Of a DNA stretch of 64,000 nt, positions 18,605 through 62,794 are shown piece by piece. The stretch's first letter is position 1; each line of letters begins with the position of its first letter. A program made the position numbers and the translations under genes. The notes beneath the pieces were generated by a model, which was not told the DNA's origin, searched no databases, and saw only the letters and a program-made list of their open reading frames with translations. This stretch comes from Ruegeria arenilitoris (GTDB taxonomy: Bacteria; Pseudomonadota; Alphaproteobacteria; Rhodobacterales; Rhodobacteraceae), in NCBI RefSeq assembly GCF_013035425.1, contig NZ_WQHX01000006.1, positions 186,001 through 250,000 on the forward strand. The letters are read 5' to 3'.

Positions 18605-18850
18605 ATGAAGATAGGCTTGGCTGTTGCTTTACTTTTCGTAGTACTAGGCGGTGCCTTTTTGCTAGCGGCACTTTTGACGACACCAATGCACTCGGACATG
18701 GATCAGGCTGAAGAATCTTCTTCGCAGATTAATACGAGTAGAAAACCGTCAACCAAGGCGAATTTCCTATGTAATGTCGGTTTAACTTTCGTCATTTTCG
18801 GGATCATCGGAATTACGATCCTAAAGTTCTTGGAAACCTATTTCGGCTGA
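18605..18850 (+). CDS. Small two-helix membrane protein, unknown
   Basis: An 81-residue protein with two hydrophobic segments, the N-terminal IGLAVALLFVVLGGAFLLAALL and a C-terminal VGLTFVIFGIIGITIL, joined by a polar Ser/Lys-rich loop. It would sit in the inner membrane as a hairpin. The 3' end overlaps the end of the DMSP-lyase-like gene on the other strand by 30 bases. There is no good ribosome-binding site, and the call rests mainly on its membrane-protein pattern and the ATG placement after the terminator. No family is recognised. Confidence 0.45.
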   Translation: MKIGLAVALLFVVLGGAFLLAALLTTPMHSDMDQAEESSSQINTSRKPSTKANFLCNVGLTFVIFGIIGITILKFLETYFG

Positions 18851-19480
18851 GGCCGAAATTGAATTGCACCTAATAAGTGAAACAGCATGTAGAAAATGAT
18901 CAGCGTGGCTTGCGTGCACCTCATTTTTTCGGTGCACAACAACATCGCCCTGATGTTTTCGATTTGGTTGCCCGCCAGTACCCACCTGAAACGACGCATC
19001 GCCGGATAGCACAACATAAAATTCCTCTGCGGGATGAGCATGTGGCGGGTAATATGTATTTGGCCCCATCAAGAACAGTCCCAAAATGACTTCGTGATTT
19101 GTCAGTACCCCATCCGGCCCAACGCCTTCTCCGTTAGCGAACTCCGAGAGGAATGGTCTGCTCCAGTTGTTTTCGGCATAGAACTCAGCCCAATTGACAT
19201 ACCCAAAGGCTGAAAATGCAGCCTGACGCAGCCCATCCAAAGATGGCGGCACGCTTGCCCCAAAAACTTTTGGAGCATGGCGCAACGCTCGGACATTCGT
19301 TTGAGAGGGTGTCTTAGTATCAACAGAAGTCGTTTCGATACCGTCGATTGCGGACGACATTATGGCAATCAGTTCTTTTCGATCTTCTGAAGTTTGGCTG
19401 TCGATATTTAGGAGAAGGTGCTCGGAAGTTCGTCGGGCCAGTTTTAGTAAAGCTCCAATCGCGTTTCGGTTCGCTTTCAT
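18821..19480 (-). CDS. Cupin DMSP lyase-like protein (DddL/DddQ family)
   Basis: A 219-residue protein whose C-terminal half is a cupin with the DMSP-lyase signature. GLFLMGPNTYYPPHAHPAEEFYVVLSG is read here in two parts: MGPNTYYPPHAHPAEEFY holds the metal-binding His, His, Glu and Tyr, and the last metal His is in NEVHASHADH. The helical N-terminal half with VNWAEFYAENNWSRPFL is also typical. These enzymes cleave dimethylsulfoniopropionate to dimethyl sulfide and acrylate in roseobacters. The terminal VSLIRCNSI aligns with the family's LYLWRGD strand without a frameshift. Other cupins could share part of this pattern, and no acrylate-handling gene is adjacent, so the substrate remains a strong inference rather than a fact. 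Confidence 0.68.
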   Translation of the reverse strand: MKANRNAIGALLKLARRTSEHLLLNIDSQTSEDRKELIAIMSSAIDGIETTSVDTKTPSQTNVRALRHAPKVFGASVPPSLDGLRQAAFSAFGYVNWAEFYAENNWSRPFLSEFANGEGVGPDGVLTNHEVILGLFLMGPNTYYPPHAHPAEEFYVVLSGDASFQVGTGGQPNRKHQGDVVVHRKNEVHASHADHFLHAVSLIRCNSISASAEIGFQEL

Positions 19481-19760: not shown

Positions 19761-19802
19761 AAAGGTGTCCCCCCTCCCCTACGAAAAGGGGAAGAGGGGA
19801 CA
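19761..19802 (-). terminator. Terminator of the nitronate monooxygenase gene
   Basis: On the minus strand, TGTCCCC pairs with GGGGACA (outer arms 19796-19802 and 19766-19772). An inner CCCCT/AGGGG stem (19776-19780 with 19787-19791) closes around a six-base loop. CC and then TTTTT follow at once on the minus strand. It lies 50 bases past the stop of the gene ending at 19852, as expected for a Rho-independent terminator. Confidence 0.7.
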
Positions 19803-22102: not shown

Positions 22103-22296
22103 GACAGCTGAATATTAGGCTAGCATCACTTCCTTTTGGATTTCCCATCCTGATATGTTGCTAGCTCCTTTAACGCTCGTTTTTTTACATTTTTGGGAGT
22201 TACTGAGGTCAAACTGAGATTTCTCAATTACTCCTGATAAGTTTCTGTTATCGTGCCTAATTGAATTCTTGACGATTTCGGTTCATATTGCACTCA

Positions 22297-23352
22297 ATGT
22301 CAGTTCCAGCGCCCTATATCCCCAATCTTACCCCTGCCCTTTCAGAAGCAGATCACGAAGCTCTGACCGACCTGTACATAGAGGGAACCCCGGCAAACAC
22401 TTTGCGCGCTTATGAACGCGACCTCGTTTACCTGACCGCTTGGAAATTGGCACGATTTCAAGAAGACCTTCTTTGGCCTGAGACTGAGCCAACCGCCCTG
22501 GCCTTTATACTCGACCACGCTCGAGGCCTAAATGAGGCGCCCGAAGCGGAAGCGGCACGAGTTGCGGCGCAAGAGCTTATTGCGCAAGGGTTACGCCGAA
22601 CTCTGAACTGCCCTGCCCCATCTACGTTGGATCGGCGTATAGCTTCGTGGCAGGCATTTCATCGCATGAAAAACCTGCGCTCTCCCTTTGATGCTCCACG
22701 TGTCAAACAAGCCCGGGCAAAAGCTCGCCGCGCTGCGGGTCGCCCCCCTATTCCAAAATCAGCGAACCCTATTACTCGCGATATTCTGGAGCAAATGTTA
22801 GCAACATGCTCTGGTACACGACGCGATTGTCGTGATCGCGCCCTTCTAATGTTGGGATGGGCCTCAGGCGGAAGACGGCGGTCCGAAATAGTAGAACTCC
22901 AGCGCAGTGATGTTTCTTTGAAAGATTTCCACCAGAACGGTTTAATCTGGATTTCGCTGATAGAGACAAAAACGACCGCTAAAGGAAAGACACCGCGGTT
23001 GGTTCTAAAAGGTCGCTCAGCCCAAGCATTGATACATTGGATCGAGCTGGGCGCAATCGACAATGGGCCACTGTTTCGCCCGATCTCAAAAGCTGACCGT
23101 GTTCTTAAGCGTCCACTTAGCCCCGATGCTGTTTATCAAATCGTTAAACATCGCTTGTCTTTAGCTGGTCTGCCAGATGGGTTTGCTTCACCGCACGGGC
23201 TTCGTTCAGGGTTTTTGACGCAAGCTGCGTTGGATGGTGCCCCGATACAAGCGGCCATGCGGTTGTCCCTGCACCGATCAATGGCACAAGCTCAAAAATA
23301 TTACGATGACGTCGAAATCGCTGAAAACCCAGCGACGGACTTGCTTAAATAA
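22297..23352 (+). CDS. Tyrosine recombinase (phage-integrase family)
   Basis: A 351-residue site-specific recombinase. The N-terminal part (LYIEGTPANTLRAYERDLVYLTAWK) is the SAM-like DNA-binding domain, and the C-terminal half carries the catalytic residues: Arg in GWASGGRRRSEIVEL, Lys in ETKTTAKGKTPRL, His-x-x-Arg in SPHGLRSGF, a second His in LSLHRSM, and the nucleophile Tyr in QKYYDDV. I chose ATG 22297 over the TTG three codons before. Recombinases of this type are common beside replication modules of roseobacter plasmids and resolve multimers or mediate integration. It reads towards parB, whose gene lies on the opposite strand. Confidence 0.9.
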   Translation: MSVPAPYIPNLTPALSEADHEALTDLYIEGTPANTLRAYERDLVYLTAWKLARFQEDLLWPETEPTALAFILDHARGLNEAPEAEAARVAAQELIAQGLRRTLNCPAPSTLDRRIASWQAFHRMKNLRSPFDAPRVKQARAKARRAAGRPPIPKSANPITRDILEQMLATCSGTRRDCRDRALLMLGWASGGRRRSEIVELQRSDVSLKDFHQNGLIWISLIETKTTAKGKTPRLVLKGRSAQALIHWIELGAIDNGPLFRPISKADRVLKRPLSPDAVYQIVKHRLSLAGLPDGFASPHGLRSGFLTQAALDGAPIQAAMRLSLHRSMAQAQKYYDDVEIAENPATDLLK

Positions 23353-23402
23353 GTAAGGCGCCGAGGTTCACCCAGCACCTTTTAAAGACATTCCGACAAA
23401 TC

Positions 23403-23416
23403 TTACCCGTGGGTAA
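23403..23416. promoter_or_regulatory. parS-like site 3 (at the parB stop)
   Basis: TTACCCGTGGGTAA: 6-bp arms TTACCC/GGGTAA around two central bases. It overlaps the parB stop codon. It is the third copy of the element found inside parA and upstream of parA. Confidence 0.75.
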
Positions 23417-24509
23417 TATCTTCCTCTTCACGTAATTCATCGATCATAGTTGCTATTGCTCGCTCCAGTTTGGCGCGGTCCACCCTTGTAAAATCCAGAT
23501 TGTACCTCAACTCGATCCGTCCGCTTGAGGCCGAGCACTTTGCAATTCCGTCCCTGCCCGAAACCTGAAAGGTAGTTTTGGCGCGGCGCGGTTTTTCTTG
23601 GCCTTGAGCGTTTTGTTTCCTTTCCGGGGCGGCGGCCGAATTCAGAAATTCTCGCAAAATAGATATCTCGCGTGCACCGTCCCTATCAGGTTCGCCGTTT
23701 AATGCGGCACGAAGCCGATGGACCAATCCAGGATCAGAATCGAGCCTACGCTTGAGTTCAACCCCAACATTCCGCGGTATTTCATTGGGATGGTTCAAAT
23801 CTTCACCCAGCATCATAATCAGACTGGCGAACGCTCGTATGTAGCTGCGTTTGGTGTAACTGGCTGATTTAAATAGGATTGTCACCGCTTTGTCGACATC
23901 TGCACAGTCATTGTCCGGCTCGGCAGCATAGGCTAGGGCGAGGGTACCCATTTCCGCAAACGAGATATCCTTTCGGATCAAATTTTCATCGACCATACGA
24001 CGGTAACTGTCGCCCAGATCTGCTCCGTCTGAAATTCCGGCTGGAATGGCCGCATATTCCTGCTCACCTGTTTCCTCAAACAAATCTCGGTAAGCGGATA
24101 GTCGACGCATTCCCTGAATCAAGTCGAATCGACCATCAGCTCGGCGTTCGACGCGGATCGGATTGGATAACCCAATGTCTTGAATCGAAGCCTTCAGTTC
24201 CTCCAACTCTGGATCCGGTCCGGGTTTCCGATCCCTTGTCAGTTTTTCAGTAACGACGTCATGAAGGGCAATTCGCTCGGTAACTAATCCTTCTGACCGA
24301 AGCCGTACCAGCTCGTGGGCGAGGCGATCATTCTCTTCTCTTATGGCATCTTGAGTTGACTGCTGGTCCCGCAAAGCCTCTGCATTTTCCGTAATAGCTG
24401 CCGCCATTGGGCCGCGTCTTTTTTCCGACGCTTTTTCCGGAACCTTGCTGGCAGGAATATCTTCCATCGCCGGCACATCGATATCAAACATTCTGCGCTT
24501 GCGGCTCAT
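23403..24509 (-). CDS. parB: Plasmid partition protein ParB (RepB-like)
   Basis: The DNA-binding half of a partition system: it loads on parS sites and links them to ParA. The 368-residue protein has a charged N terminus (MSRKRRMFDIDVP), the ParB/Srx-type domain (LEELKASIQDIGLSNPIRVERR with DLIQGMRRLSAYRDL), the helix-turn-helix region (VDENLIRKDISFAEMGTLALAYA), and a RepB-type C terminus (FQVSGRDGIAKCSASSGRIEL). The layout resembles RepB of repABC plasmids. Its start overlaps the parA stop (ATGA), so the pair is one operon. A parS-like palindrome lies over its own stop codon. Confidence 0.9.
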   Translation of the reverse strand: MSRKRRMFDIDVPAMEDIPASKVPEKASEKRRGPMAAAITENAEALRDQQSTQDAIREENDRLAHELVRLRSEGLVTERIALHDVVTEKLTRDRKPGPDPELEELKASIQDIGLSNPIRVERRADGRFDLIQGMRRLSAYRDLFEETGEQEYAAIPAGISDGADLGDSYRRMVDENLIRKDISFAEMGTLALAYAAEPDNDCADVDKAVTILFKSASYTKRSYIRAFASLIMMLGEDLNHPNEIPRNVGVELKRRLDSDPGLVHRLRAALNGEPDRDGAREISILREFLNSAAAPERKQNAQGQEKPRRAKTTFQVSGRDGIAKCSASSGRIELRYNLDFTRVDRAKLERAIATMIDELREEEDITHG

Positions 24510-25813
24510 GCGTCATCCTCCAATTTGTCCCAGGCCGACAACATCACGCCCCGAAACTCTTCATACGCATTATCAAAAGTCGAACGGGCACGACGCCACG
24601 TCTCACGTGTCATTTCTCGGTAGTCCATCTCATAGACTGAACTTAGGAACCGCCCGGATTGCTCAACTGCTCGGGTCATTTCGACCGGATGCTCAGCCAA
24701 ATGATCACCAAAAACCTTACGGAAGGCGTCATACATCGCCAAGTGCAATGCATTTCCCGGCTCATATCGCGTCAAAAGGAAACGCACTTCAGCGAAGGCT
24801 TTGGGTAGACTAATCTTACCCGTGGGTAACGTTTTATCGAACCCATAGGCTAAATCTTCCAACGCTTCAGCCAGCTGTCCGATGAATGAAGTAGTCGAAT
24901 CATATTCCCAATATCCAGGACCAGACGGTATATAGAGCATATCCGCCGCGAAGACAGCATTCATCGACTGATAGCCAATGGCCGGCGGGCAATCGAATAA
25001 GATCAGATCGTAGGCATCATCTGGTATCTGATCCAAGTAACGTGATACAGCAGCAAAGAACGACCACTCTGGATTCAGATGCCTATACTGAGCCGATGCA
25101 AACTCCACAAAGGCAGCATTCGCACAAGAAGGTATGGCGTCGATGGTGGACCATGACGTTTGTTTGATAAAATCTGAGATCCTGAGATCCCCCAAACCCA
25201 TGTCAGTTATTGATGGGGGAAGCTGACGGTGGGGCAGGGCAGTACCGGATTCAGCAGCCACTGACCGGCTGTTCATCCGCTCAGTCTCACGGATCAAATC
25301 TCGGGCCATGATACCCCAAACGGTAAAGTCCTCCGATACGTCAGTCAGGCCCATGGAGTGGCTGAGCGTGGCCTGAGGATCAAAATCTACGACAAGCACT
25401 CTGTAACCATCAAGCGCAGCCGCATGGGCCAGGTGCAGCGCCACGGTTGATTTTCCTGCACCTCCCTTGAAATTCGCGACCGCAGCCCGAACCGCTCGTT
25501 TGCCGACCGGACGCTGAGGCATTAGTACCTTGCGGTTCAACTTGAGCCGACGGCGTAACTCATTGACCTCCTCCAGACTGAACCATCGCTGCCTCCCCTC
25601 TGGCTCTACCTCGCCCCCTGGCAGCGATGGGTCTGCCGCCAACTTTCCCCGAAATGTCGACTGGTTAATACGAAATATCAATTCAGCCACTTCCCAACTG
25701 GAGAACCTGCGCAACGTCTTTTCCATCTCGGGACTGAATGTCTGTCGTCGTATCCAGCCCTGCAGTTTAAGGGACTGCGTGCGCAATGCGTTTAGGTCTT
25801 CGTGCGTGTACAT
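24506..25813 (-). CDS. parA: Plasmid partition ATPase ParA (RepA-like)
   Basis: The Walker-type ATPase that moves plasmid copies apart. The first 110 or so residues form a helix-turn-helix domain (FSSWEVAELIFRINQSTFRGK, WFSLEEVNELRRRL), as in type Ia ParA and RepA proteins, which lets it repress its own operon. The deviant Walker A is FKGGAGKSTVALHLA, followed by VLVVDFDPQATLSHSMG (Walker A') and LILFDCPPAIGYQ (Walker B). It is 435 residues long. A parS-like palindrome lies inside the gene and another just upstream, between it and the replicase, suggesting autoregulated, centromere-linked transcription. Confidence 0.93.
   Translation of the reverse strand: MYTHEDLNALRTQSLKLQGWIRRQTFSPEMEKTLRRFSSWEVAELIFRINQSTFRGKLAADPSLPGGEVEPEGRQRWFSLEEVNELRRRLKLNRKVLMPQRPVGKRAVRAAVANFKGGAGKSTVALHLAHAAALDGYRVLVVDFDPQATLSHSMGLTDVSEDFTVWGIMARDLIRETERMNSRSVAAESGTALPHRQLPPSITDMGLGDLRISDFIKQTSWSTIDAIPSCANAAFVEFASAQYRHLNPEWSFFAAVSRYLDQIPDDAYDLILFDCPPAIGYQSMNAVFAADMLYIPSGPGYWEYDSTTSFIGQLAEALEDLAYGFDKTLPTGKISLPKAFAEVRFLLTRYEPGNALHLAMYDAFRKVFGDHLAEHPVEMTRAVEQSGRFLSSVYEMDYREMTRETWRRARSTFDNAYEEFRGVMLSAWDKLEDDA
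24816..24829. promoter_or_regulatory. parS-like site 2 (inside parA)
   Basis: TTACCCGTGGGTAA, identical to the copy at the parB stop. It lies within the coding part of parA, so the sequence is conserved despite codon constraints. The arms are perfect. Confidence 0.75.
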
Positions 25814-25909
25814 GCCTCAGGTCTCTTTTTTGGACGTAAATTGTTCTACCTTTATTATTTACGCTCAGTTTGCGAATTTAGCAAAATAAATTATTCTTAC
25901 TTTGAGACC

Positions 25910-25923
25910 TTACCCATGGGTAA
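25910..25923. promoter_or_regulatory. parS-like site 1 (upstream of parA)
   Basis: TTACCCATGGGTAA is a perfect 14-bp palindrome, sharing both 6-bp arms with the two other copies. It lies about 100 bases before the parA start, on the origin side, where ParB or ParA binding could also control transcription. Confidence 0.8.
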
Positions 25924-26008
25924 CAAACTAAGGCAGATTGCAACCACAAACGAAGTGCCGGGGACTGCAACCACTGATTCTCCCTGCAGAGGAAAGAAAA
26001 CAAGATTT

Positions 26009-26085
26009 AGGGGGACATTAGAGGCACTGTATCAGAATATAGGGGGACAATAAAGTGCTTTAAGGGGACACTCAGGCTGTCCCCC
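26009..26085. repeat. Origin iterons (GGGGACA)
   Basis: AGGGGGACA at 26009-26017 and 26041-26049, AAGGGGACA at 26062-26070, and the inverted TGTCCCCC at 26078-26085. Spacing between the direct copies is 32 and 21 bp, about three and two helical turns. Repeats like these before a plasmid replicase gene are normally its binding sites, which control both initiation and copy number. Confidence 0.7.
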
Positions 26086-26266
26086 ATCACCAAAGTTCAC
26101 CATTTTTATTTGAGTTTATTGAATGAATTTAGTGTGTACTCTACTCCGCACTTGACAGAATCGGCGCAATGGACGCTAATCAGAGAACAAATCGGAAAAG
26201 CGTTGACAAACAGCGCTAATATGGCGGCAAATGTCGCTAGAGGCAGATTGGGCGGTGAGGAGGACA

Positions 26267-26950
26267 ATGCAGGTTGCAATACCGGTGGGACGTAGCGCGC
26301 CTGCCATTAAATACGACATTTTATCCGCACTGACAGTTTTCGCGCTGTCTGGTGACAAACATCTTCAGAGACGCATACTCCGGCTCGTTTGTCTGATTAC
26401 GACAAGATACAACTGGCGCAAAAATGAACTTTCGATAGGTCGAGAAGAAATAGCCCGTTTATGGTCAGTGGAAGAAAGAACTGTAAAGCGCGAAATGGCC
26501 AAATTCCGAACGAACGGATGGGTAACGGTAAAAAGACCTGCCGCCCGAGGGCGCGTGGCAGTGTATGCGTTGGACCTGCGACAAATTCTACTGGATTGTT
26601 CCAGCGCGTGGCCTTTAATCGGACCAGACTTTCTGGACAGAATGTCGACCGCCCCAGAACCAACGACCAATGTGATTCCCTTTCAGGCGAAAACCGCTTC
26701 AGCCAACGCAAACGGGGATGATCTCTGGACACAAGTGCAAGCTTTTCTGCATGAAAGAGACCCAGAACTCTGGTCGAGCTGGTTCCAGCATCTGACCGAA
26801 TCAGAAAGGGCAGGGGGCTGTGTCACATTGGTCGCGCCATCAAGGTTTATGGCAGATTACATTTCGCAAAAGTGGACAACACGGTTGCTGGCAGCTTATG
26901 GCCGAATAGACCCAACCATTAGATCCGTTAGGATCGAGATGACTGAATGA
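26267..26950 (+). CDS. DnaA-like plasmid replicase
   Basis: The initiator of the replication module, 227 residues. The N-terminal part (IKYDILSALTVFALSGDKH to ELSIGREEIARLWSVEERTVKREMAKF) looks like a winged-helix DNA-binding domain. The C-terminal 75 residues (LWTQVQAFLHERDPELWSSW, then VTLVAPSRFMADYISQKWTTRLLAAYG) match DnaA domain I with the start of its linker. This combination is the DnaA-like replicase class of Roseobacter plasmids. I chose ATG 26267 just after AGGAGG; an ATG at 26231 would add 12 residues. Its iterons lie upstream and the parAB operon is divergent. Domain I probably recruits the helicase. Confidence 0.82.
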   Translation: MQVAIPVGRSAPAIKYDILSALTVFALSGDKHLQRRILRLVCLITTRYNWRKNELSIGREEIARLWSVEERTVKREMAKFRTNGWVTVKRPAARGRVAVYALDLRQILLDCSSAWPLIGPDFLDRMSTAPEPTTNVIPFQAKTASANANGDDLWTQVQAFLHERDPELWSSWFQHLTESERAGGCVTLVAPSRFMADYISQKWTTRLLAAYGRIDPTIRSVRIEMTE

Positions 26951-48396: not shown

Positions 48397-48698
48397 TCCC
48401 CGGGGAGTTGTTTTCGGTCAAAGGTGAAATCACGCTGAATGCCGATGCGAAAGCGGTCAATTTGTTGGTCGCAAATACTGGCGATCGACCAGTGCAAGTG
48501 GGCTCGCATTACCATTTTGCGGAAACCAACCCGGCGCTGGAATTCGACCGCGACGCCGCGTACGGCATGCGATTGGATATCGCCCCTGGAACGGCCGTTC
48601 GGTTCGAGCCGGGGCAAAGTCGCGAAGTCTTCTTGATCCCAATCGGTGGCGCGCGCAAGGTTTACGGATTTAACCAAAAGGTTATGGGGTCACTCTGA
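48393..48698 (+). CDS. ureB: Urease beta subunit
   Basis: The second structural subunit, 101 residues. [18 protein letters not shown] at the start, [26 protein letters not shown] and [18 protein letters not shown] in the body, and [12 protein letters not shown] at the end match the family throughout. It overlaps the short ORF (ATGA) and the ureC start (TGATG), so all are translated together. Confidence 0.97.
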
Positions 48699-50458
48699 TG
48701 CCGGCAAAAATCAAACGCTCAGATTTTGCAGCCATGTTTGGCCCAACGGTTGGAGACAAACTTCGTCTGGCTGACACTGATTTGATAATCGAGGTCGAGC
48801 GAGATCTGGCCGCTGAAAGTTCCGGGTCCGCAAGCTCGGGCGGCACTGGTGAAAACGCGTTGCTTTATGGCGAGGAAGTCAAATTCGGCGGTGGCAAGGT
48901 TATTCGGGATGGTATGGGACAATCTCAGGTGACACGTGCGGGCGGCGCCGTGGACACTGTGATTACCAATGCACTAATTGTTGATTACTCCGGCATATAC
49001 AAGGCGGATGTAGGTTTAAAAGACGGTCGAATCTCCAAAATCGGAAAAGCCGGCAATCCGGACATGCAACCCGGGGTCGATATAATCATCGGACCCGGCA
49101 CCGAAGCTATCGCTGGCGAAGGGCGCATCCTAACCGCAGGTGGGTTCGACAGTCATATCCATTTTATTTGCCCGCAACAGATCGAGGACGCGTTGCACTC
49201 CGGTCTGACAACAATGTTGGGGGGCGGTACCGGCCCGGCACACGGTACATTGGCGACCACTTGCACTCCTGGTCCGTGGCACATTGGACGGATGCTGCAG
49301 GCGGCTGACGCTTTTCCAATGAATCTGGCCTTTGCTGGCAAGGGGAACGCCTCGTTGCCCACAGCATTGGAAGAACAAGTCAACGCCGGAGCTTGTGCAC
49401 TAAAGCTGCACGAAGACTGGGGCACGACACCGGCTGCGATCGACTGTTGCCTCACCGTGGCTGACGCGATGGACGTTCAGGTTATGATCCATACTGACAC
49501 GTTGAACGAGTCCGGTTTCGTGGAAAACACGGTGGGCGCAATGAAGGGCCGTACAATCCATGCATTCCACACGGAAGGTGCCGGAGGCGGCCACGCGCCT
49601 GACATCATAAAGATTTGCGGAGAGCAGCACGTTCTGCCCTCTTCGACAAACCCAACGCGGCCATTTACGGTGAATACGGTCGAAGAACACTTGGACATGC
49701 TTATGGTTTGTCACCACCTCGACAAATCCATCCCTGAAGATGTGGCATTTGCCGAAAGCAGAATACGGCGTGAAACCATTGCGGCCGAAGACATCCTTCA
49801 CGACATGGGTGCTTTCAGTATTATAGCCTCAGACAGTCAAGCCATGGGCCGTGTAGGCGAGGTATTGATCCGCACCTGGCAAACCGCTGACAAGATGAAA
49901 AAACAGCGAGGGCGTCTTCCTGAAGAGACCGGTGAAAATGATAATATGCGTGTCCGTCGCTATATAGCCAAATACACCATCAACCCGGCGATTGCGCACG
50001 GTCTGAGCCATGAAATCGGCAGCATTGAAGAGGGAAAACGCGCTGACTTGGTCCTGTGGAACCCCGCTTTCTTTGGGGTGAAACCCGAGATGGTTCTTCT
50101 AGGGGGAACCATTGTATGTGCTCAGATGGGCGATCCCAACGCCTCGATCCCAACGCCGCAGCCAGTTTACAGCCGCCCGATGTTCGGAGCCTTTGGGCGT
50201 TCGGTTGAGAACTCGGCGATCACATTTGTGTCGGAAGCCGCGCAAGCTAAAGGGATTGGTGATACATTGGGTCTGGCAAAACAGACTGTCGCCGTGCGCG
50301 ATACAAGGGACATTGGCAAAAGCGACCTGCTGCTAAACGATGCGACCCCAAGGATTGAAGTGGATCCTGAAACCTACGACGTTCGCGCCGATGGCGAGCT
50401 GCTGACCTGCCAGCCTGCCGAGATTCTACCGATGGCACAGCGCTATTTTATGTTTTGA
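48698..50458 (+). CDS. ureC: Urease alpha (catalytic) subunit with a small insertion
   Basis: The nickel-containing catalytic subunit. Nickel ligands and catalytic residues are in [12 protein letters not shown], the carbamylated Lys in [35 protein letters not shown], and [20 protein letters not shown], where the last His is part of the moving flap. The protein has 586 residues, against a usual 567-570. The extra length is a Ser/Gly-rich insertion after IEVERDL (about residues 38-55, bases 48809-48862), before [11 protein letters not shown]. The insertion lies in a surface part near the N terminus and should not disturb the active site. It ends 19 bases before ureE. Confidence 0.97.
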
Positions 50459-55321: not shown

Positions 55322-55398
55322 TGGTCGGAGTGAGAGGATTCGAACCTCCGACCCCTGCCTCCCGAAGACAGTGCTCTACCAGGCTGAGCTACACTCCG
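55322..55398 (-). tRNA. tRNA-Pro (anticodon CGG)
   Basis: On the minus strand a full cloverleaf can be drawn: acceptor stem CGGAGTG/CACTCCG, D arm GCTC/GAGC, anticodon stem CTGTC/GGCAG with loop TTCGGGA, T arm GGAGG-TTCGAAT-CCTCT, discriminator A and an encoded CCA. The anticodon CGG reads the proline codon CCG. The length is 77 bases with CCA. It faces the rRNA methyltransferase gene's end and lies beside the flavohaemoprotein remnant. Confidence 0.97.
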
Positions 55399-55520: not shown

Positions 55521-56636
55521 TCATCTCAAAGGATCGGTGCGATACAACCTGATCTTTGTGCCGCCGTGATCTACCACCGGACCAGGCGGCAAGAAGGGTA
55601 AGCGGGTGGCGCGAGCGAGTGATGAATTGCTGGTGACCAATCCAACTCGCCATCCCGAAAAACGGGCGATCAGAACTTTGCCAAGACTGCCATACAAAGA
55701 CCGCAGCCGCTTGTCGTCGCCTATTCTTCCACCGTAAGGGGGGTTTACAATGATCAAGCCGCAGGGGCCTGGTGGGGCTTTAATATCGCTTAAAGACTTT
55801 TGGAGAAACTGGGTAACTTCGTTGACACCTGCCCGTTCCGCGTTGGCCTTGGCGCTTTCAACAGCTCCGGCGTTTCTGTCCGAGCCGAAGAAAGTCAAGC
55901 CGGACTTGTATTCTTGAGTGGTGCTGCGCATCGTCTGCCAAAGAGCGCGATCAAAAGTTGCAAGTTCCTCGAAAGCAAAGTGTCGTGTACGCCCGGGGAG
56001 TAAACCGAGTGCAATCTCAGCCGCTTCGATTACGAAAGTTCCTGAGCCGCACATCGGGTCCAAAACAGGTTCTGATCTATCAAAGCTACACTCTCGGAGG
56101 AACATGGCGGCCATCGTCTCGCGCATTGGCGCCTTGGCGACAGCCACTTTATGGCCACGCTTGTGGAGCGGCTCTCCTGAACTGTCGACAGAGAAGGTGC
56201 AGATATCCTTTTCTATCCGAAGAAGGACGCGCAATTTGGCGTTTGTCGAAATGGGAGCGCCCAACGATTCTGTTATCGCGCGTTCCACCCGCTGCCGCGC
56301 GGCACCGGCATGATATATACGGGACTTTCGACTGATTGCTTCAACTTTTACAGGGACATTCGGGCGTAACACGTTGAACCACGGAAATTTTCGAGCTCGC
56401 TTGTCTAATTGCGCAAGATGAACAGCTGGAAAACCACCCAATCGCACCAGAACCTTGTTGGCGCCCCGCAAGACCAGATTTGCGCGCCATACTTCGGACC
56501 AATCGCCGCGGCATAAAACGCCACCCGCAACAGCCTGTGCTTCGGTAAATCCTAACTGGATCGCTTCTGCGCAAAGCGGTGCCTCAAGGCCGGGCGTGGC
56601 GACCAGAAAAATTTCAAGATCATCGGTGTCTTCCAT
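55521..56636 (-). CDS. THUMP-domain RNA methyltransferase (RlmL-N-terminal-like)
   Basis: A SAM-dependent N2-guanine methyltransferase for 23S rRNA or tRNA, 371 residues. An N-terminal THUMP domain (about residues 40-150, with CTFSVDSSGEPLHKRGHKV at its end) binds RNA. The catalytic domain has the SAM site LDPMCGSGTFVIEAAEIA, FFGSDRNAGAVESAKANAERAG, and the amino-methyltransferase motif IIVNPPYGGRIGDD (NPPY). The match is to the N-terminal half of E. coli RlmL (YcbY), without the RlmK half. It is divergent from the nqr operon. Confidence 0.9.
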   Translation of the reverse strand: MEDTDDLEIFLVATPGLEAPLCAEAIQLGFTEAQAVAGGVLCRGDWSEVWRANLVLRGANKVLVRLGGFPAVHLAQLDKRARKFPWFNVLRPNVPVKVEAISRKSRIYHAGAARQRVERAITESLGAPISTNAKLRVLLRIEKDICTFSVDSSGEPLHKRGHKVAVAKAPMRETMAAMFLRECSFDRSEPVLDPMCGSGTFVIEAAEIALGLLPGRTRHFAFEELATFDRALWQTMRSTTQEYKSGLTFFGSDRNAGAVESAKANAERAGVNEVTQFLQKSLSDIKAPPGPCGLIIVNPPYGGRIGDDKRLRSLYGSLGKVLIARFSGWRVGLVTSNSSLARATRLPFLPPGPVVDHGGTKIRLYRTDPLR

Positions 56637-56936
56637 CGTGGTTCCTTACACCGGTTGTGAGGTGGGGGCGACAGCCAAATTTGATACGCGTATTTGCACT
56701 CAATTTCCGCATTCCACCCATAATGTGGTATTGATGTCGCGATTTGGTCTGTATCGGGTTTGCGTTTGCATTCGTCCCCGCGTAAAGGAGCCGTAATCGG
56801 GTTAAGGTCAGCTGTTTCCAACTAGCTGTTGATGAAATTGCGGCACCTCCGATACGATGATTTGTAGCGGATGGGGTTATCTTCGGATCATCGAGAACTG
56901 TTGGTGCAAGTAAAAGGCTTGGAAGAACGTAGCGAC

Positions 56937-58280
56937 ATGCAAACTTTCAAACTGAAAAAAGGATTGGACCTGCCGGTTCAGGGCGCACCGGCGCAGGAAA
57001 TCCAACCAGGACCTGAATTTTCGACTGTAGGGGTTTTGGGTGGTGACTACGTCGGACTAAAGCCTAAAATGTTGGTCCAGGAGGGTGACGAGATTCAACG
57101 CGGCGCGCCGTTGTTTTGTCATAAGGATGCTCCAGAAGCATTGATGGTTGCCCCTCTCAGCGGAAGGGTAGTAGCTATCAACCGGGGTGCGCGCCGTGTG
57201 TTACAAAGCGTTGTCATCCAAGTTTCCGATGTCCATGACAAAGGCGTCGATTTTGCCGAGATTGGCGACGCAACAAGCGCTGAAGGTGTAACGGCCAAGT
57301 TATGCGCCGCAGGTTTATGGACATCCTTCCGCACGCGACCATATTCGAAGATGCCTTTACCGGGAAGCATACCCGCGGCGATTTTTGTGACTGCGATCGA
57401 TACAGATCCGTTGGCAGGGGATGCCGCGGTGATCATAAACGATGCGCCAGAGGCCTTTGCTGATGGTCTGGCTGCGGTATCACAACTGACGGATGGAAAG
57501 ACCTATCTTTGCCAGCGCGATGGAGATTCAATTCCCGGAGGCGACCTACCAGGGGTCGAGGTGGCGGCATTTTCTGGTCCTCACCCTGCTGGGCTGGCAG
57601 GAACACATATCCATTATCTGGAACCGTTGGTTGCCGACAAACGGGTTTGGACAATCGGATATCAGGACGTAATAGCGATCGGGCGTCTGTTTCAGACAGG
57701 GCACCTTGATCCCAATGTGGTGGTCTCGTTGGCGGGGCCAGCGGCGCGTATGCCGCGCCTGATCCGCACCGTTATGGGTGCGTCAACCAACGATTTGACC
57801 CGGGATGAGATCAATGTGGATGGCACAGCCCGGGTCATATCGGGCTCGATCCTGTCAGGGCACCATGCGGACGGTCCAACAGCTTACCTTGGTCGGTTCG
57901 CGCGGCAGATCGCGATTATCCGCGAAGACCGCGATCAGATTACCTTGGGCTGGATTCTGCCAATGCCGTCCAAATACGCAGTGCAACCTGTGCTTGGTTC
58001 GGCGTTTGCCAAAAAACTATTTGCGTTCACCTCCAATCTCAATGGTGGGCGGCGCGCAATGGTTCCGACTGGTACATTCGAAGAACTAATGCCGCAGGAT
58101 TATTTGCCCACACAGCTTTTGCGCGCCCTATTGGTTATGGACACTGATACAGCTCAGGCTTTGGGTGCATTGGAATTAGATGAAGAGGATCTGGGTCTCG
58201 TGGGTTTTGCGTGCCCGGCAAAGTATGAATACGGGCTGGCGTTGCGCGACTGCCTGACAAAAATTGAAAAGGAGGGCTGA
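56937..58280 (+). CDS. nqrA: Na+-translocating NADH:quinone reductase subunit A
   Basis: The cytoplasmic subunit that binds quinone in the sodium-pumping NADH dehydrogenase. MQTFKLKKGLDLPVQGAPAQ, GDYVGLKPKMLVQEGDEI, APLSGRVVAINRGARRVLQS and RTRPYSKMPLPGSIPAAIFVTAID match the family start to end. I chose ATG 56937, which gives the usual 447 residues; the frame is open for 22 further codons upstream that do not fit. It is the first gene of nqrABCDEF, five bases before nqrB. Confidence 0.95.
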   Translation: MQTFKLKKGLDLPVQGAPAQEIQPGPEFSTVGVLGGDYVGLKPKMLVQEGDEIQRGAPLFCHKDAPEALMVAPLSGRVVAINRGARRVLQSVVIQVSDVHDKGVDFAEIGDATSAEGVTAKLCAAGLWTSFRTRPYSKMPLPGSIPAAIFVTAIDTDPLAGDAAVIINDAPEAFADGLAAVSQLTDGKTYLCQRDGDSIPGGDLPGVEVAAFSGPHPAGLAGTHIHYLEPLVADKRVWTIGYQDVIAIGRLFQTGHLDPNVVVSLAGPAARMPRLIRTVMGASTNDLTRDEINVDGTARVISGSILSGHHADGPTAYLGRFARQIAIIREDRDQITLGWILPMPSKYAVQPVLGSAFAKKLFAFTSNLNGGRRAMVPTGTFEELMPQDYLPTQLLRALLVMDTDTAQALGALELDEEDLGLVGFACPAKYEYGLALRDCLTKIEKEG

Positions 58281-58285
58281 GCCGA

Positions 58286-59494
58286 ATGGGTTTGCGCAGC
58301 TTCTTTGACCGGATTGAGCCGAATTTCACCAAAGGCGGCAAATACGAAAAGTACTTTCCCATCTACGAGATGGTCGAAAGCTTCATCTACACGCCAAAAA
58401 CAGTGACGACTGTCGCACCACATGCGCGGTCCTATGTCGATATGAAACGCATCATGACTTACGTCGTGATAGCCACGATCCCTTGTATATTGTGGGGGAT
58501 GTACAACACCGGGTATCAGGCGAATTCGGCCATTGAAATGCTGGGTCCAGATTCCGCAACCGGGTGGCGGATCTCCATTCTGCAAGCCATTGGAATTTCT
58601 CTGAACCCCGAAAGCATCTTTGCCAATGTAATGCATGGATTGATGTATTTTCTACCGATATACATCGTCACGTTGGTCGCTGGCGGCATCTTCGAGGTTA
58701 TCTTCGCTACCGTGCGCGGACACGAAGTGAACGAAGGTTTCCTCGTAACATCAATGCTTTATACGCTGATAATGCCAGCCACCGCCCCCCTTTGGCAGGT
58801 GGCTTTGGGCATCATCTTTGGCGTTGTGATCGGTAAAGAAGTTTTTGGCGGAACAGGCAAAAATTTCCTCAACCCTGCATTGGTTGGTCGGGCATTCTTG
58901 TACTTTGCCTACCCGGCAAATATGTCGGGCGACACGGTCTGGACACCGGTCGACGGCTTTTCTGGGGCGACTGCATTGTCGGTTTCAGCTTCTCAGGGCT
59001 ATCAAGTGCTCGCTGCGGATGGCATAACTTGGTGGAGCGCCTTCTTTGGTCAGATACAAGGCAGCTTTGGCGAGACTTCAACATTGGCTTGTATGATCGG
59101 CCTTGCCTTCTTGATAGTGACACGAATCGCAAACTATCGGCTGATCGTTGGATGTTTGAGCGGAACAATTGTCTTTACGATGTTGCTTAACCTGATTGGG
59201 TCCGACACCAATCCGATGTTTTCCATGCCGTGGTACTGGCATCTAGTAATCGGGGGCTATGCGTTTGGTTTAGCGTTCATGGTCACCGAACCTGTTTCTG
59301 CAAGCCATACTAACGTGGGTCGCTACATATACGGTGCACTGATTGGGGTGATGGTCGTAATGATCCGCGTGGTTAATCCGGCATTTCCCGAAGGAATGAT
59401 GCTTGCCATTTTGTTCGGCAATGTCTTTGCGCCGCTGATTGATTATTTTGTCGTTCAGGCAAACATTAAACGGAGGGCGCGTCGCCATGTCTGA
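58286..59494 (+). CDS. nqrB: Na+-translocating NADH:quinone reductase subunit B
   Basis: The main membrane subunit, 402 residues, with about ten hydrophobic segments and two cofactors (a covalent FMN and riboflavin). The FMN-attachment Thr is in GFSGATALSVSAS. Other marks are the start GLRSFFDRIEPNFTKGGKYEKYFPIYE, HARSYVDMKRIMTYVV and GMYNTGYQAN, and ATAPLWQVALGIIFGVVIGKEVFGGTGKNFLNPAL. The 3' end overlaps nqrC by eight bases. Confidence 0.96.
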   Translation: MGLRSFFDRIEPNFTKGGKYEKYFPIYEMVESFIYTPKTVTTVAPHARSYVDMKRIMTYVVIATIPCILWGMYNTGYQANSAIEMLGPDSATGWRISILQAIGISLNPESIFANVMHGLMYFLPIYIVTLVAGGIFEVIFATVRGHEVNEGFLVTSMLYTLIMPATAPLWQVALGIIFGVVIGKEVFGGTGKNFLNPALVGRAFLYFAYPANMSGDTVWTPVDGFSGATALSVSASQGYQVLAADGITWWSAFFGQIQGSFGETSTLACMIGLAFLIVTRIANYRLIVGCLSGTIVFTMLLNLIGSDTNPMFSMPWYWHLVIGGYAFGLAFMVTEPVSASHTNVGRYIYGALIGVMVVMIRVVNPAFPEGMMLAILFGNVFAPLIDYFVVQANIKRRARRHV

Positions 59495-60302
59495 TACGCA
59501 ACCCCCTGAGCAAAAAGGTGCAATCGCCCGATTCCTGGCGGCTTCGCCGGATTCGGTTGGCAAGACCATTTTTGTGGCCGTCGCCGTTTGCCTAGTTGCT
59601 TCGATGGTGGTGTCGGCCGCTGCAGTTAGCCTTCGACCAGTTCAGGACGCCAACCGCCTGAAGGACAGGCAGGTTAACGTTTTGCAGGTGGCAGGCGTCT
59701 ATGAACCCGGCATCGACGTCACCGAGGCCTTTGCCGCGTTCGAGCCGCATGTGCTGGAGCTGGAGACTGGTGAATTCGTCGATGATCAATTCGACCCAAC
59801 GACGTTCGACGATATCGCTGCTGCCAGTGACCCGGACCTGAGTGTCGCGCTGGATAATGATCCGGCAGGGATTGGCCGCAGATCCAATTACCGCGTTATA
59901 TATCTATTGCGCGATCAATCCGGTGAATTGGATAAAGTTGTTCTTCCTCTGCACGGCTACGGTCTCTGGTCGACGCTTTACGGTTTCATCGCGTTGGAAA
60001 ATAACGGCAACGATATTTTTGGCTTGCAGTTTTATCAGCATGGCGAAACCCCCGGACTGGGCGCCGAGGTCGACAATCCGCGTTGGAAAGCATTGTGGAA
60101 CGGAAAAAAGTTGCGTGATGATGCAGGCGATCTTCAGATCACGGTGTCAAAGACACAACCTGCCGCCGGACCCGACTTTTATGTTGATGCGTTGGCTGGT
60201 GCCACTCTGACATCGGTTGGGGTCGATAACCTTGTGAAATTCTGGATGGGTGACGCGGGTTACGCTCCGTTTCTGGCCAAACTGCAAGCAGGAGAGTTCT
60301 GA
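59487..60302 (+). CDS. nqrC: Na+-translocating NADH:quinone reductase subunit C
   Basis: A single-helix periplasmic subunit that carries a covalent FMN, 271 residues. A membrane segment ([21 protein letters not shown]) follows a short cytoplasmic start. The FMN-attachment motif reads [10 protein letters not shown]. The common form is SGATxTS, so the first Ser is Ala here; the acceptor Thr is kept. I chose ATG 59487 after GGAGGG, which overlaps nqrB. The attachment needs the flavin transferase ApbE, not seen in this window. Confidence 0.95.
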
Positions 60303-60955
60303 TGTCGCAGACAAGAAAAGAGCTTTTGGTCGACCCGCTTGTCGACAATAACCCGATCACATTACAGGTACTCGGCATCTGTTCGGCCTTGGCGGTGACC
60401 TCGTCGCTGCAAGTGTCAATGGTTATGGCGCTGGCCGTTATCTTTGTAACGTCGTTCTCATCCTTTTTCATTTCTTGCCTACGCAATCAGATACCCGGTT
60501 CAATCCGGATCATCGTGCAGATGGTGATCATTGCCTCGCTCGTGATTTTGGTGGATCAAATCCTCAAAGCATATGCTTTCGAGATTTCTAAGACCCTGTC
60601 GGTCTTCGTTGGCCTTATTATCACCAACTGCATTGTGATGGGCCGTGCCGAAGCTTTTGCAATGAAAAACCCACCTGTCGCGTCTTTCATCGACGGGATG
60701 GGAAACGGCATGGGCTATGGCCTGATCCTGCTGCTGGTGGGTTTCATCCGCGAATTGTTTGGGGCGGGGTCGCTATTTGGCATTACAATTTTGCAGACCG
60801 TGAATAACGGGGGCTGGTACGTGCCGAACGGCATGTTGCTTTTGCCGCCCTCCGCGTTTTTCATTATCGGGCTGATTATATGGGCTTTCCGAACCTGGAA
60901 ACCCAGCCAAGTCGAAGAGCGTGAATACAAAATTCAACAGGTAGAGGCGCACTGA
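60302..60955 (+). CDS. nqrD: Na+-translocating NADH:quinone reductase subunit D
   Basis: A membrane subunit of 217 residues with six hydrophobic segments. [28 protein letters not shown] at the start (read in two parts), [17 protein letters not shown] with the conserved Cys that helps hold the intramembrane iron-sulfur cluster, and [17 protein letters not shown] are typical. The start overlaps the nqrC stop (TGATG), and the stop overlaps nqrE in the same way. Confidence 0.96.
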
Positions 60956-61563
60956 TGGAAGGGCTTATCTCATTGGCCGTAAAGGCCATCTTTGTTGAAA
61001 ACCTTGCGCTCAGCTTCTTTCTGGGTATGTGCACCTTTATCGCCGTTTCGAAGAAGATCTCGACTGCGCTCGGCTTGGGTATATCAGTGATGCTGGTTCA
61101 GGCCATTACAGTACCGACAAATAATCTGTTGCTGAATTATCTGCTGAAACCAGGCGCACTGGCATGGGCGGGGTTCCCGGATGTTGACCTAACTTTTCTT
61201 GGTTTGATTTCTTATATTGGCGTCATCGCGGCTATGGTGCAGATCCTAGAGATGATCCTCGATAAGTATTTTCCACCTCTGTACAACGCATTGGGTATTT
61301 TCCTGCCTTTGATTACCGTAAATTGCGCCATACTGGGCGGGTCTTTGTTCATGGTCGAGAGGGATTACAACTTCGCTGAAGCGGCAACTTACGGTCTCTC
61401 CTCGGGCTTTGGATGGGCTTTGGCCATCACGGCAATGGCCGGTGTCAGGGAAAAGCTGAAATATTCCGATATTCCTGACGGATTGCAGGGTCTGGGTATC
61501 ACCTTTATCACGGCGGGCTTGATGGCGATGGCTTTCATGTCCTTCTCAGGCGTGAAGCTTTAA
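60955..61563 (+). CDS. nqrE: Na+-translocating NADH:quinone reductase subunit E
   Basis: A membrane subunit of 202 residues, homologous to NqrD in inverted orientation; the two form the core that carries the iron-sulfur cluster. Marks are [58 protein letters not shown] with the conserved Cys, and [21 protein letters not shown]. It is followed by nqrF after ten bases with AAGGAGGGG as ribosome-binding site. Confidence 0.96.
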
Positions 61564-61573
61564 GGAGGGGCCG

Positions 61574-62794
61574 ATGGAAACGTTCAGCTTAGGCGTCATC
61601 CTATTTACCTTGATCGTTCTCGCGCTGGTCGCGGTCATCATGGCCGCGCGGTCGCGGTTGGTTTCGACCGGTAACGTGAACATCACCATCAACGGTGAAA
61701 AAACGATTTCGGTCCCTGCTGGTGGCAAGCTTTTGCAAACGCTGGCGGCAGAGAAGCTGTTTGTCCCGTCCGCTTGCGGGGGCGGTGGAACCTGCGCACA
61801 GTGCCGCGTGCGCATTCATTCGGGCGGCGGATCAATACTGCCGACTGAAGAGAGCCATATCACTAAGCGAGAGGCATCTTGTGGGGATCGGCTTTCCTGT
61901 CAGGTGGCAGTCAAGCAGGACATGGATATCGAAGTTCCGGAGGAGGTCTTTGGTGTCAAGAAGTGGGAATGTACCGTTCGTTCGAACGAAAACGTTGCGA
62001 CCTTTATCAAGGCCCTGACGCTGGACTTACCTGAAGGCGAGGATGTGAATTTCCGTGCTGGAGGCTACATTCAGATCGAGGCGCCAGCGCACCAGCTGGC
62101 GTATACCGATTTCGACGTTGAAGAGGAGTATCGCGAAGACTGGGACAAATTCAATTTGTGGCAATACAAGTCAGTGGTTGCCGAGCCGATTGAACGTGCT
62201 TACTCCATGGCCAACTATCCAGAAGAGAAGGGTATGATCATGCTCAACGTTCGGGTGGCTTCGCCGCCGCCGGGATCAGAGGGCATACCTGCGGGTCAGA
62301 TGTCGTCCTACATTTTCAACTTGAAACCAGGTGACAAAGTTACGATCTCCGGCCCTTTTGGTGAATTCTTCGCGCGCGATACAGAAAAGGAGATGGTCTT
62401 CATAGGCGGAGGTGCGGGTATGGCACCGATGCGCAGCCACATCTTTGATCAGCTCAAAAGATTGAAAACGAAACGAAAAATTAGTTTTTGGTATGGGGCC
62501 AGGTCCAAGCGAGAGATGTTCTTTGTCGAGGATTTCGACTCGCTCGCGGCGGAAAACGAAAACTTTGAATGGCATGTTGCCTTGTCTGATCCTCAGCCTG
62601 GAGATGATTGGGACGGCTACACAGGTTTTATCCATAACGTGTTGTTCGAAGAATACCTCAAGAACCATCCGGCGCCGGAAGATTGCGAATTCTACATGTG
62701 TGGACCACCGATCATGAACCAGTCTGTTATAAACATGCTGCTGGATCTTGGCGTGGACCGTGAAGACATCATGCTTGATGATTTTGGTGGCTGA
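61574..62794 (+). CDS. nqrF: Na+-translocating NADH:quinone reductase subunit F
   Basis: The electron-input subunit, 406 residues. One N-terminal membrane helix is followed by a 2Fe-2S domain with Cys in [16 protein letters not shown] and DRLSCQVAV, then a FAD domain ([20 protein letters not shown]) and an NADH domain ([31 protein letters not shown]). These take electrons from NADH through FAD to the cluster. The gene ends the operon and is followed by a strong terminator. Confidence 0.97.

Follow-up and report, generated by a model that had tools for sequence, protein, structure and literature searches.

In this study, we analysed a window of 64,000 nucleotides from Ruegeria arenilitoris (G000:C23:186001-250000, the whole stretch under analysis; positions below are window coordinates unless prefixed with a contig), in which a DnaA-like I replicase, parAB, partition-site palindromes and a putative origin form a plasmid-type replication module. 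We consider it highly probable that the contig carrying this module, C23 (299,131 bp, in a 26-contig draft genome of 4.79 Mb and 99.69% completeness), is an autonomous chromid of about 299 kb, kept for the sole detected tRNA-Leu(UAG) gene and further cargo, and that across the genus this block of genes lies on either of two replicators.

Replicon status and tRNA cargo of C23

The first-pass annotation had proposed either a chromid or an integrated plasmid, and the first of these held for this genome. The cumulative guanine-cytosine (GC) skew of C23 (mean removed, 100-bp steps) has its minimum at C23:211,900, inside the spacer between parA and the replicase gene and 331 bp from the replicase start, and its range was reached by 3 of 2000 shuffles of 5-kb blocks. 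Among relatives, the minimum lies 926 bp from the contig's own repB on G021:C2 (1/2000) and 125 bp from its own DnaA-like rep on G051:C4 (340,000 of 340,901 bp); on G030:C34 (400 of 412 kb) it lies at 211.5 kb, away from the tRNA block, which is neutral either way. The presence of dnaA and rRNA on the same molecule had been suggested as a check: dnaA is on C1, rpoB is on C22, and no rRNA was found on C23 at the Rfam gathering score, so that C23 shares no contig with the genes expected beside an integrated plasmid. The complete circular Ruegeria plasmids AD91A, SCSIO 43209 and THAF33 carry the same module, tRNA-Pro(CGG) and nqr. An assembly chimera, in which plasmid and chromosomal sequence were joined, would be conceivable in a draft of 26 contigs, but the same gene combination on these independent complete plasmids led us to reject it, and we give it next to no credence.

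The composition of C23 is also close to that of the chromosome. A chromid is expected to differ by no more than 2.5% from the chromosome in GC content (PMC9025767; the papers cited here and below are represented by excerpts), and C23 has 51.6% against 53.0-53.6% in three samples of C1, which stand for the dnaA contig and not for the whole chromosome. The distance in relative synonymous codon usage to the C1 samples was 0.81 for C23 and 0.97-3.01 for ten other contigs, which gave much smaller samples; the codon usage of C23 is thus that of a chromid, as is the combination with plasmid-type replication and parAB. The ends of C23 look like those of an opened circle: PA14-type coding sequence was recognised at both (by family at the far end, by eye at the near one), and the tex-icd-tRNA-Leu-nqr-tRNA-Pro block, which G030 has in one piece (35-96 kb of its contig), is divided between them.

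Several observations weigh against an autonomous and indispensable C23. The skew range of G051:C4 was reached by 127 of 2000 shuffles, a weak amplitude. The contigs are those of a draft, so linkage past the ends of C23 is possible; these ends do not overlap, and the circularity is therefore indirect, while PA14 also occurs once inside contig C4. The tetranucleotide usage of C23 is intermediate (1.31-2.00), with 0.97-1.35 in the four chromosomal samples that define the reference and 2.28-2.63 in C2, C3 and C26. Furthermore, if CUA were also read by a different tRNA, the cell might do without C23. Among the 54 genus genomes surveyed below, the tRNAs stand on the rpoB contig in G030 (both), G028 (Pro) and G041 (Leu), and the rpoB contig also carries the DnaA-like rep-parA-parB module in G038 and RepB in G023, which may reflect integration in some relatives. 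The link of the module to rpoB in G038 and that of the tRNA/nqr block in G030 lend some support to the view that a DnaA-like plasmid was integrated into the chromosome and that its module is now vestigial or silent. In R. arenilitoris, C23 has a skew pattern of its own centred on the module, dnaA and rpoB are on other contigs, and the replicase and parAB frames are open; together with the complete relatives, this led us to discard integration, which we regard as very unlikely here.

Two tRNA genes, Leu(UAG) and Pro(CGG), were found on C23 by ARAGORN over all 15 stretches of the contig. It had been argued from tRNA-Pro(CGG) that loss of the replicon would hardly be harmless. The gene is indeed present (55322-55398, minus strand), is the sole copy found in the genome and is 100% identical on five complete Ruegeria plasmids; the argument is weak because tRNA-Pro(UGG) and tRNA-Pro(GGG) are located on another contig and UGG isoacceptors can read CCG. 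It was therefore set aside as the essential gene in favour of tRNA-Leu(UAG), located at C23:23472-23556, outside the window. Genome-wide there are at least 40 tRNA matches; among the typed matches listed, five Leu isoacceptors occur once each, with UAG only on C23. A direct genome search found no second tRNA-Leu(UAG), the next best match being 78% identical and located at the tRNA-Leu(CAG) gene. Under the wobble rules CUA is read only by UAG, and the CTA codon occurs in 174 of 186 C23 and 26 of 27 sampled C1 mechanical open reading frames (ORFs) of at least 250 amino acids. The essentiality suggested by these decoding rules makes tRNA-Leu(UAG) the stronger argument. If C23 were instead an ordinary dispensable megaplasmid, with extra tRNAs whose loss is tolerated, its plasmid-type replication and the redundancy of tRNA-Pro(CGG) in decoding would be accounted for, but neither its chromosome-like GC content and codon usage nor the single tRNA-Leu(UAG) match in its own genome and in each of 53 of the 54 genus genomes would be; we hold this to be improbable.

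A second perfect copy of 53-57 nucleotides of the tRNA-Pro(CGG) 3' end occurs in 6 of the 54 genomes (SCSIO 43209 plasmid 133744-154482; G014:C17, G033:C1, G007:C24, G049:C30 and G032:C5). These duplicated ends are probably attachment sites of islands, and in SCSIO 43209 a recombinase gene lies between the two copies.

Two replicators and one cargo in the genus

The second replicator is RepB, a Rep_3 initiator (Rep3_N, Rep3_C) unrelated to DnaA-like I and with its own parAB. In the survey, DnaA-like I was called close at a value of at least 68% and RepB at one of at least 83%. A close DnaA-like I replicase was found in 31 of the 54 genomes, with only distant, partial or broken matches in 4, and RepB also in 31, with C-terminal fragments in 2 more. 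The genomes accordingly fall into those with DnaA-like only (17), RepB only (19), both (12), DnaA-like plus a RepB fragment (2) and neither (4). The cargo is nearly constant, with tRNA-Pro in 54/54 and tRNA-Leu in 53/54 (one match each, E up to 1e-25; none in G019), the two sharing a contig in 37 of 53. The DnaA-like contig carries one or both tRNAs in 11 genomes, and the RepB contig does so in 13, one of the latter being G041 with its tRNA-Leu on the rpoB contig; in the remaining genomes the tRNAs are unlinked to replicase or rpoB. All seven genomes of 2-6 contigs have both tRNAs and a replicase on a contig other than that of rpoB, DnaA-like in G010, G029, G034, G035, G039 and G043 and RepB in G021. 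Among complete plasmids, B32 carries RepB, and the three circular plasmids named above carry the DnaA-like replicase.

The RepB module adjoins tex in G021, G001, G002 and G004 and icd-tex in B32; in G023 it is intact, with no tex beside it. No repB open frame lies beside icd-tex on C23, and tex has no adjoining replicase in SCSIO 43209, R. conchae, AD91A and THAF33. Between the mechanical ORFs of at least 100 amino acids of C23 (250) and G021:C2 (239), 61 reciprocal best hits were obtained, 44 of them at 60% identity or above. The repB fragment of G051:C4 starts from residue 252, about 35 kb from the DnaA-like module and on the same contig as tRNA-Pro, and the 255 bases preceding it do not match RepB; that of G052:C7 is shorter (from residue 301), and neither genome has another RepB match at E up to 1e-5. 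A remnant of repB was also sought on C23 itself and rejected, as the genus search gave only a 29% match in this genome, on C26. C26 (103,532 bp), with a parA-like match of 271.8 bits, a distant Rep_3-type match and 55.6% GC in its first 20 kb, is probably a further plasmid. In G053, which has a RepB match, C24 19606-20220 matches the DnaA-like replicase (53%) with four in-frame stops and is a decayed DnaA-like module. An attempt to guess the replicator of R. conchae by synteny failed: its 45-kb syntenic stretch has no annotated rep gene, and R. conchae is not among the 25 RepB or 12 RepB-fragment plasmid records listed.

An RlmL-like RNA methyltransferase gene (55521-56636, minus strand; UPF0020, 130 bits) adjoins tRNA-Pro in 52 of the 54 genomes, that of R. 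arenilitoris included, and served as the marker of the block; G031 and G036, where it is missing from this place, were left out of the methyltransferase set. Jukes-Cantor distances were compared by partial Mantel tests with 2000 permutations. The two-gene tRNA-Leu flank comprised 33 sequences; flanks were drawn from 34 of the 54 genomes, and G045, with no flank genes, was dropped. Given rpoB, the methyltransferase correlates with the tRNA-Leu flank (r 0.64, 0/2000, 32 genomes), and its raw correlation with rpoB is 0.17. The replicase correlates with the methyltransferase given rpoB both where DnaA-like occurs without a full RepB (0.87, 0/2000, 17 genomes) and in RepB-only genomes (0.61, 0/2000, 18 genomes), while given the methyltransferase its correlation with rpoB is 0.39 (36/2000) for DnaA-like and -0.05 (1303/2000) for RepB-only. 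As replicase distances track the methyltransferase more than rpoB, module and methyltransferase appear to travel together. In 11 genomes with both replicases, the methyltransferase correlates at 0.23 with DnaA-like (144/2000) and at 0.38 with RepB (28/2000), as expected if the block there sits mostly on RepB.

The label of having RepB or not, counted without the four genomes with neither replicase, changes 3 times on the tree of the methyltransferase (48 tips) and 7 times on that of rpoB (50 tips). None of 2000 shuffles gave as few on either, so the replicon type also follows rpoB clades. With physically linked tips only (23-24), the counts are 3 (0/2000) and 6 (163/2000), and in the shared subset of 30-31 tips they are 4 for the tRNA-Leu flank, 5 for rpoB and 2 for the methyltransferase. 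The rpoB neighbours correlate at 0.79 and 0.68 with rpoB (30 genomes) and form one chromosomal locus with it.

This evidence suggests that an essential chromid was displaced or that its replicator was exchanged, within the limits of draft genomes and a single chromosomal locus. One scenario, which we put forward tentatively and with considerable doubt, is that an incoming chromid establishes itself beside the resident and then displaces it, the essential replicon and its replicator being inherited together and independently of the species chromosome. Such an entry would be feasible because the replicators are unrelated and presumably compatible, and because both lineages supply tRNA-Leu(UAG). 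A different history, itself compatible with a chromid, would involve no displacement or swap: the two replicons may be ancient paralogues that existed side by side in the ancestor of the genus and were then lost differentially, or the block may have moved from the chromosome to two different plasmids. The co-occurrence of both replicases, the residual correlation of DnaA-like with rpoB, the rpoB clades above, the contiguous block on the rpoB contig of G030 and the correlation of the tRNA-Leu flank with rpoB (r 0.52, 21 genomes) would all fit this history; the RepB distances, which follow the methyltransferase and show no partial correlation with rpoB, the rpoB sisters G043 and G003 (95.9%), which differ in their methyltransferases (69.1%), and the repB fragments of G051 and G052 would not. 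We regard it as possible rather than likely. Displacement, block transfer and old paralogy may each account for the joint path of module and methyltransferase, since rpoB is one locus and the tRNA-Leu flank itself correlates with it.

If this reading is right, an apparently essential block is held in one genus by one or the other of two unrelated replicators; the 12 genomes with both replicases would be possible intermediates, and the truncated repB of two genomes would be fossils. It could then be tested how the machinery of a DNA molecule that a cell needs is changed while the molecule itself is kept, and whether a relative's chromid can replace the resident one. Related Ruegeria plasmids are typed as non-mobilizable, which bears on the route of any transfer.

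Architecture of the DnaA-like I module

The module is ordered recombinase (+), parB (-), parA (-), spacer and replicase (+). A replicase, parAB, parS, iterons and a recombinase had all been described by the first-pass annotation, and each was recovered at or near the place it gave. The replicase gene (26231-26950, plus strand) encodes 239 amino acids with a winged helix (about 23-114), a disordered linker (141-162) and DnaA domain I (165-237), matching Pfam DnaA_N at 33.5 bits and HTH_Crp_2 at 22.2 bits, the latter below the cut-off. An AlphaFold2 model from 11 sequences had a mean predicted local distance difference test score of 77.5 and a predicted template modelling score of 0.50. Its top Foldseek matches were chains of 82-84 residues of 4tps (target template modelling score, TMt, 0.80-0.82), a structure of SirA with DnaA domain I whose matched chain was assigned to DnaA from chain length. 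No Pfam match to an AAA+ domain was found in the replicase, and "DnaA-like" here covers DnaA domain I only, the true dnaA being that of C1. The protein matches 292 plasmid records; the closest named replicase is that of Ruegeria sp. ANG-S4 (77%). It is homologous to that of NZ_CP084962 (51.1% over 91%), which is typed as DnaA-like I (PMC9025767).

The divergent parA (24506-25813, minus strand; AAA_31, 94.7 bits) encodes a protein that shares 89-94% identity with the ParA proteins of four Ruegeria plasmids, with values of 90-95% in only three records. The parB gene (23403-24509, minus strand) matches ParB_N at 24.2 bits, below the Pfam cut-off of 26.3, with a weak RepB-partition match; its homologues beside the replicase in AD91A and R. 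pomeroyi are annotated as ParB N-terminal domain-containing. The divergence of parAB from the replicase and the partition-site palindromes are those of a DnaA-like I replicon, with ParB_N below its cut-off. The XerC/D-like tyrosine recombinase beside parB (22288-23352, plus strand; Phage_integrase, 51.8 bits) is an optional part of the module: homologues adjoin it in R. pomeroyi (72%) and G052 (78%), 4 of 9 Ruegeria loci examined with 3-kb flanks show its C-terminal end, and none was found in the module stretches of AD91A, G038 or G051.

Three perfect plus-strand copies of the parS-like palindrome TTACCCNNGGGTAA were found, at the parB stop (23403-23416), inside parA (24816-24829) and in the parA-rep spacer (25910-25923), the last lying 10 bp from the GC-skew minimum, which is resolved only to 100 bp. 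It had no match in 100 shuffles of the window and no further copy in the 299-kb contig. The palindrome is present in 26 of 26 parA-rep spacers, that of C23 included (4 of 30 replicase loci were left out, parA being out of reach), and in three copies in G051:C4; none was found in G021:C2 or the first 400 kb of G030:C34.

The 417-bp spacer (25814-26230) also holds a putative origin (26008-26085, plus strand) with iteron-like GGGGACA repeats, three direct and one inverted. The repeats are few and degenerate: TAGGGGGACA at 26008 and 26040, AAGGGGACA at 26062 and the inverted TGTCCCCC at 26078. Over the whole window, there is a single WAGGGGACA (0.58 expected) and there are three WRGGGGGACA (0.33 expected; a count of 3 arose in 1 of 100 shuffles), of which the one at 19766 lies outside the module. 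Their clustering and the conserved columns of this region in the alignment of 26 spacers offer better support for candidate iterons than these counts do. The TTATNCACA box is absent from all 26 spacers.

Judging from these features, the winged helix of the replicase would bind the GGGGACA iterons and its DnaA domain I may help to recruit the host DnaB helicase, while a replicase with no AAA+ domain probably needs other factors for melting. By homology, ParA and ParB would act on the three parS palindromes in segregation. The replicon would then be retained because it carries the sole detected tRNA-Leu(UAG) reading CUA, along with tRNA-Pro(CGG), nqr and icd-tex.

Comparison with known replicons and neighbouring genes

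The ingredients of this system are each already in print, and their combination in Ruegeria was not found in searches of open-licence PubMed Central (PMC) papers. A DnaA-like-I chromid has been described in Sulfitobacter pontiacus, pDSM110277_c (PMC9025767). The R. pomeroyi DSS-3 megaplasmid resembles C23 in its homologous replicase (65.9%) and divergent parAB, but differs in that it matches neither tRNA (E up to 1e-5) and that its module adjoins tex. For the second replicator, the 78-kb plasmid of Phaeobacter inhibens is of type RepB-I in a scheme that also includes DnaA-like I (PMC4062626), and Ruegeria RepB shares 75.9% identity with replicases found on P. inhibens plasmids of about 78 kb, whose equivalence with the published plasmid we infer from size. 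R. arenilitoris, unlike these, has no close RepB match, and in B32 and others RepB adjoins tex.

Exchange of DnaA-like I and RepB-III, with secondary replacement inferred, has been described in photosynthesis plasmids (PMC6052148). As in Ruegeria, two unrelated replication modules alternate there on the same cargo; according to the excerpt, however, they share one position in the photosynthesis cluster, whereas the C23 module is not in the slot beside tex and the Ruegeria cargo includes a sole tRNA. In Sinorhizobium meliloti, pSymB carries a single-copy tRNA-Arg and engA after transfer of a chromosomal fragment (diCenzo 2013, cited in PMC6090056), and is thus like C23 a chromid with a single-copy tRNA, but a different replicon with a different tRNA; the excerpts name no alternation of replicators for it. 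Chromosome II of Paracoccus denitrificans and pAMI5 have dnaA-like replication systems and are described as primary chromids of Paracoccus (PMC3925955). In the same genus, five records of 1.46-2.24 Mb (NZ_CP035287, NZ_CP141053, CP038202, NZ_CP038196 and NZ_CP038206) combine, as C23 does, a related replicase (51-52%), tRNA-Leu(UAG) (98.8%) and tex, but these secondary replicons are far larger.

The neighbourhood of tRNA-Pro, an RNA methyltransferase, urease and nqr noted previously was confirmed, all lying within about 36 kb of the replicase. The further genes of C23 include a monomeric icd, tex, ureC (urease alpha; 48698-50458, plus strand; TIGR01792, 954 bits, cut-off 680) and the nqrA-F operon (56871-62794, plus strand), in which nqrA and nqrF were assigned by family and the genes between them from their similarity to the nqr blocks on Ruegeria plasmids. 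Elsewhere, C23 has one cobalamin and two thiamine pyrophosphate riboswitch matches (stretches L005 13821-14030, L008 15105-15204 and L011 3978-4083). A cupin gene with a Pfam DMSP_lyase match (73.3 bits; 18821-19480, minus strand) places a marine-sulfur gene on the chromid. Finally, an Rfam 5_ureB_sRNA match (97.8 bits; 48901-49190, minus strand) runs antisense to ureC and may merely reflect conserved urease coding sequence.

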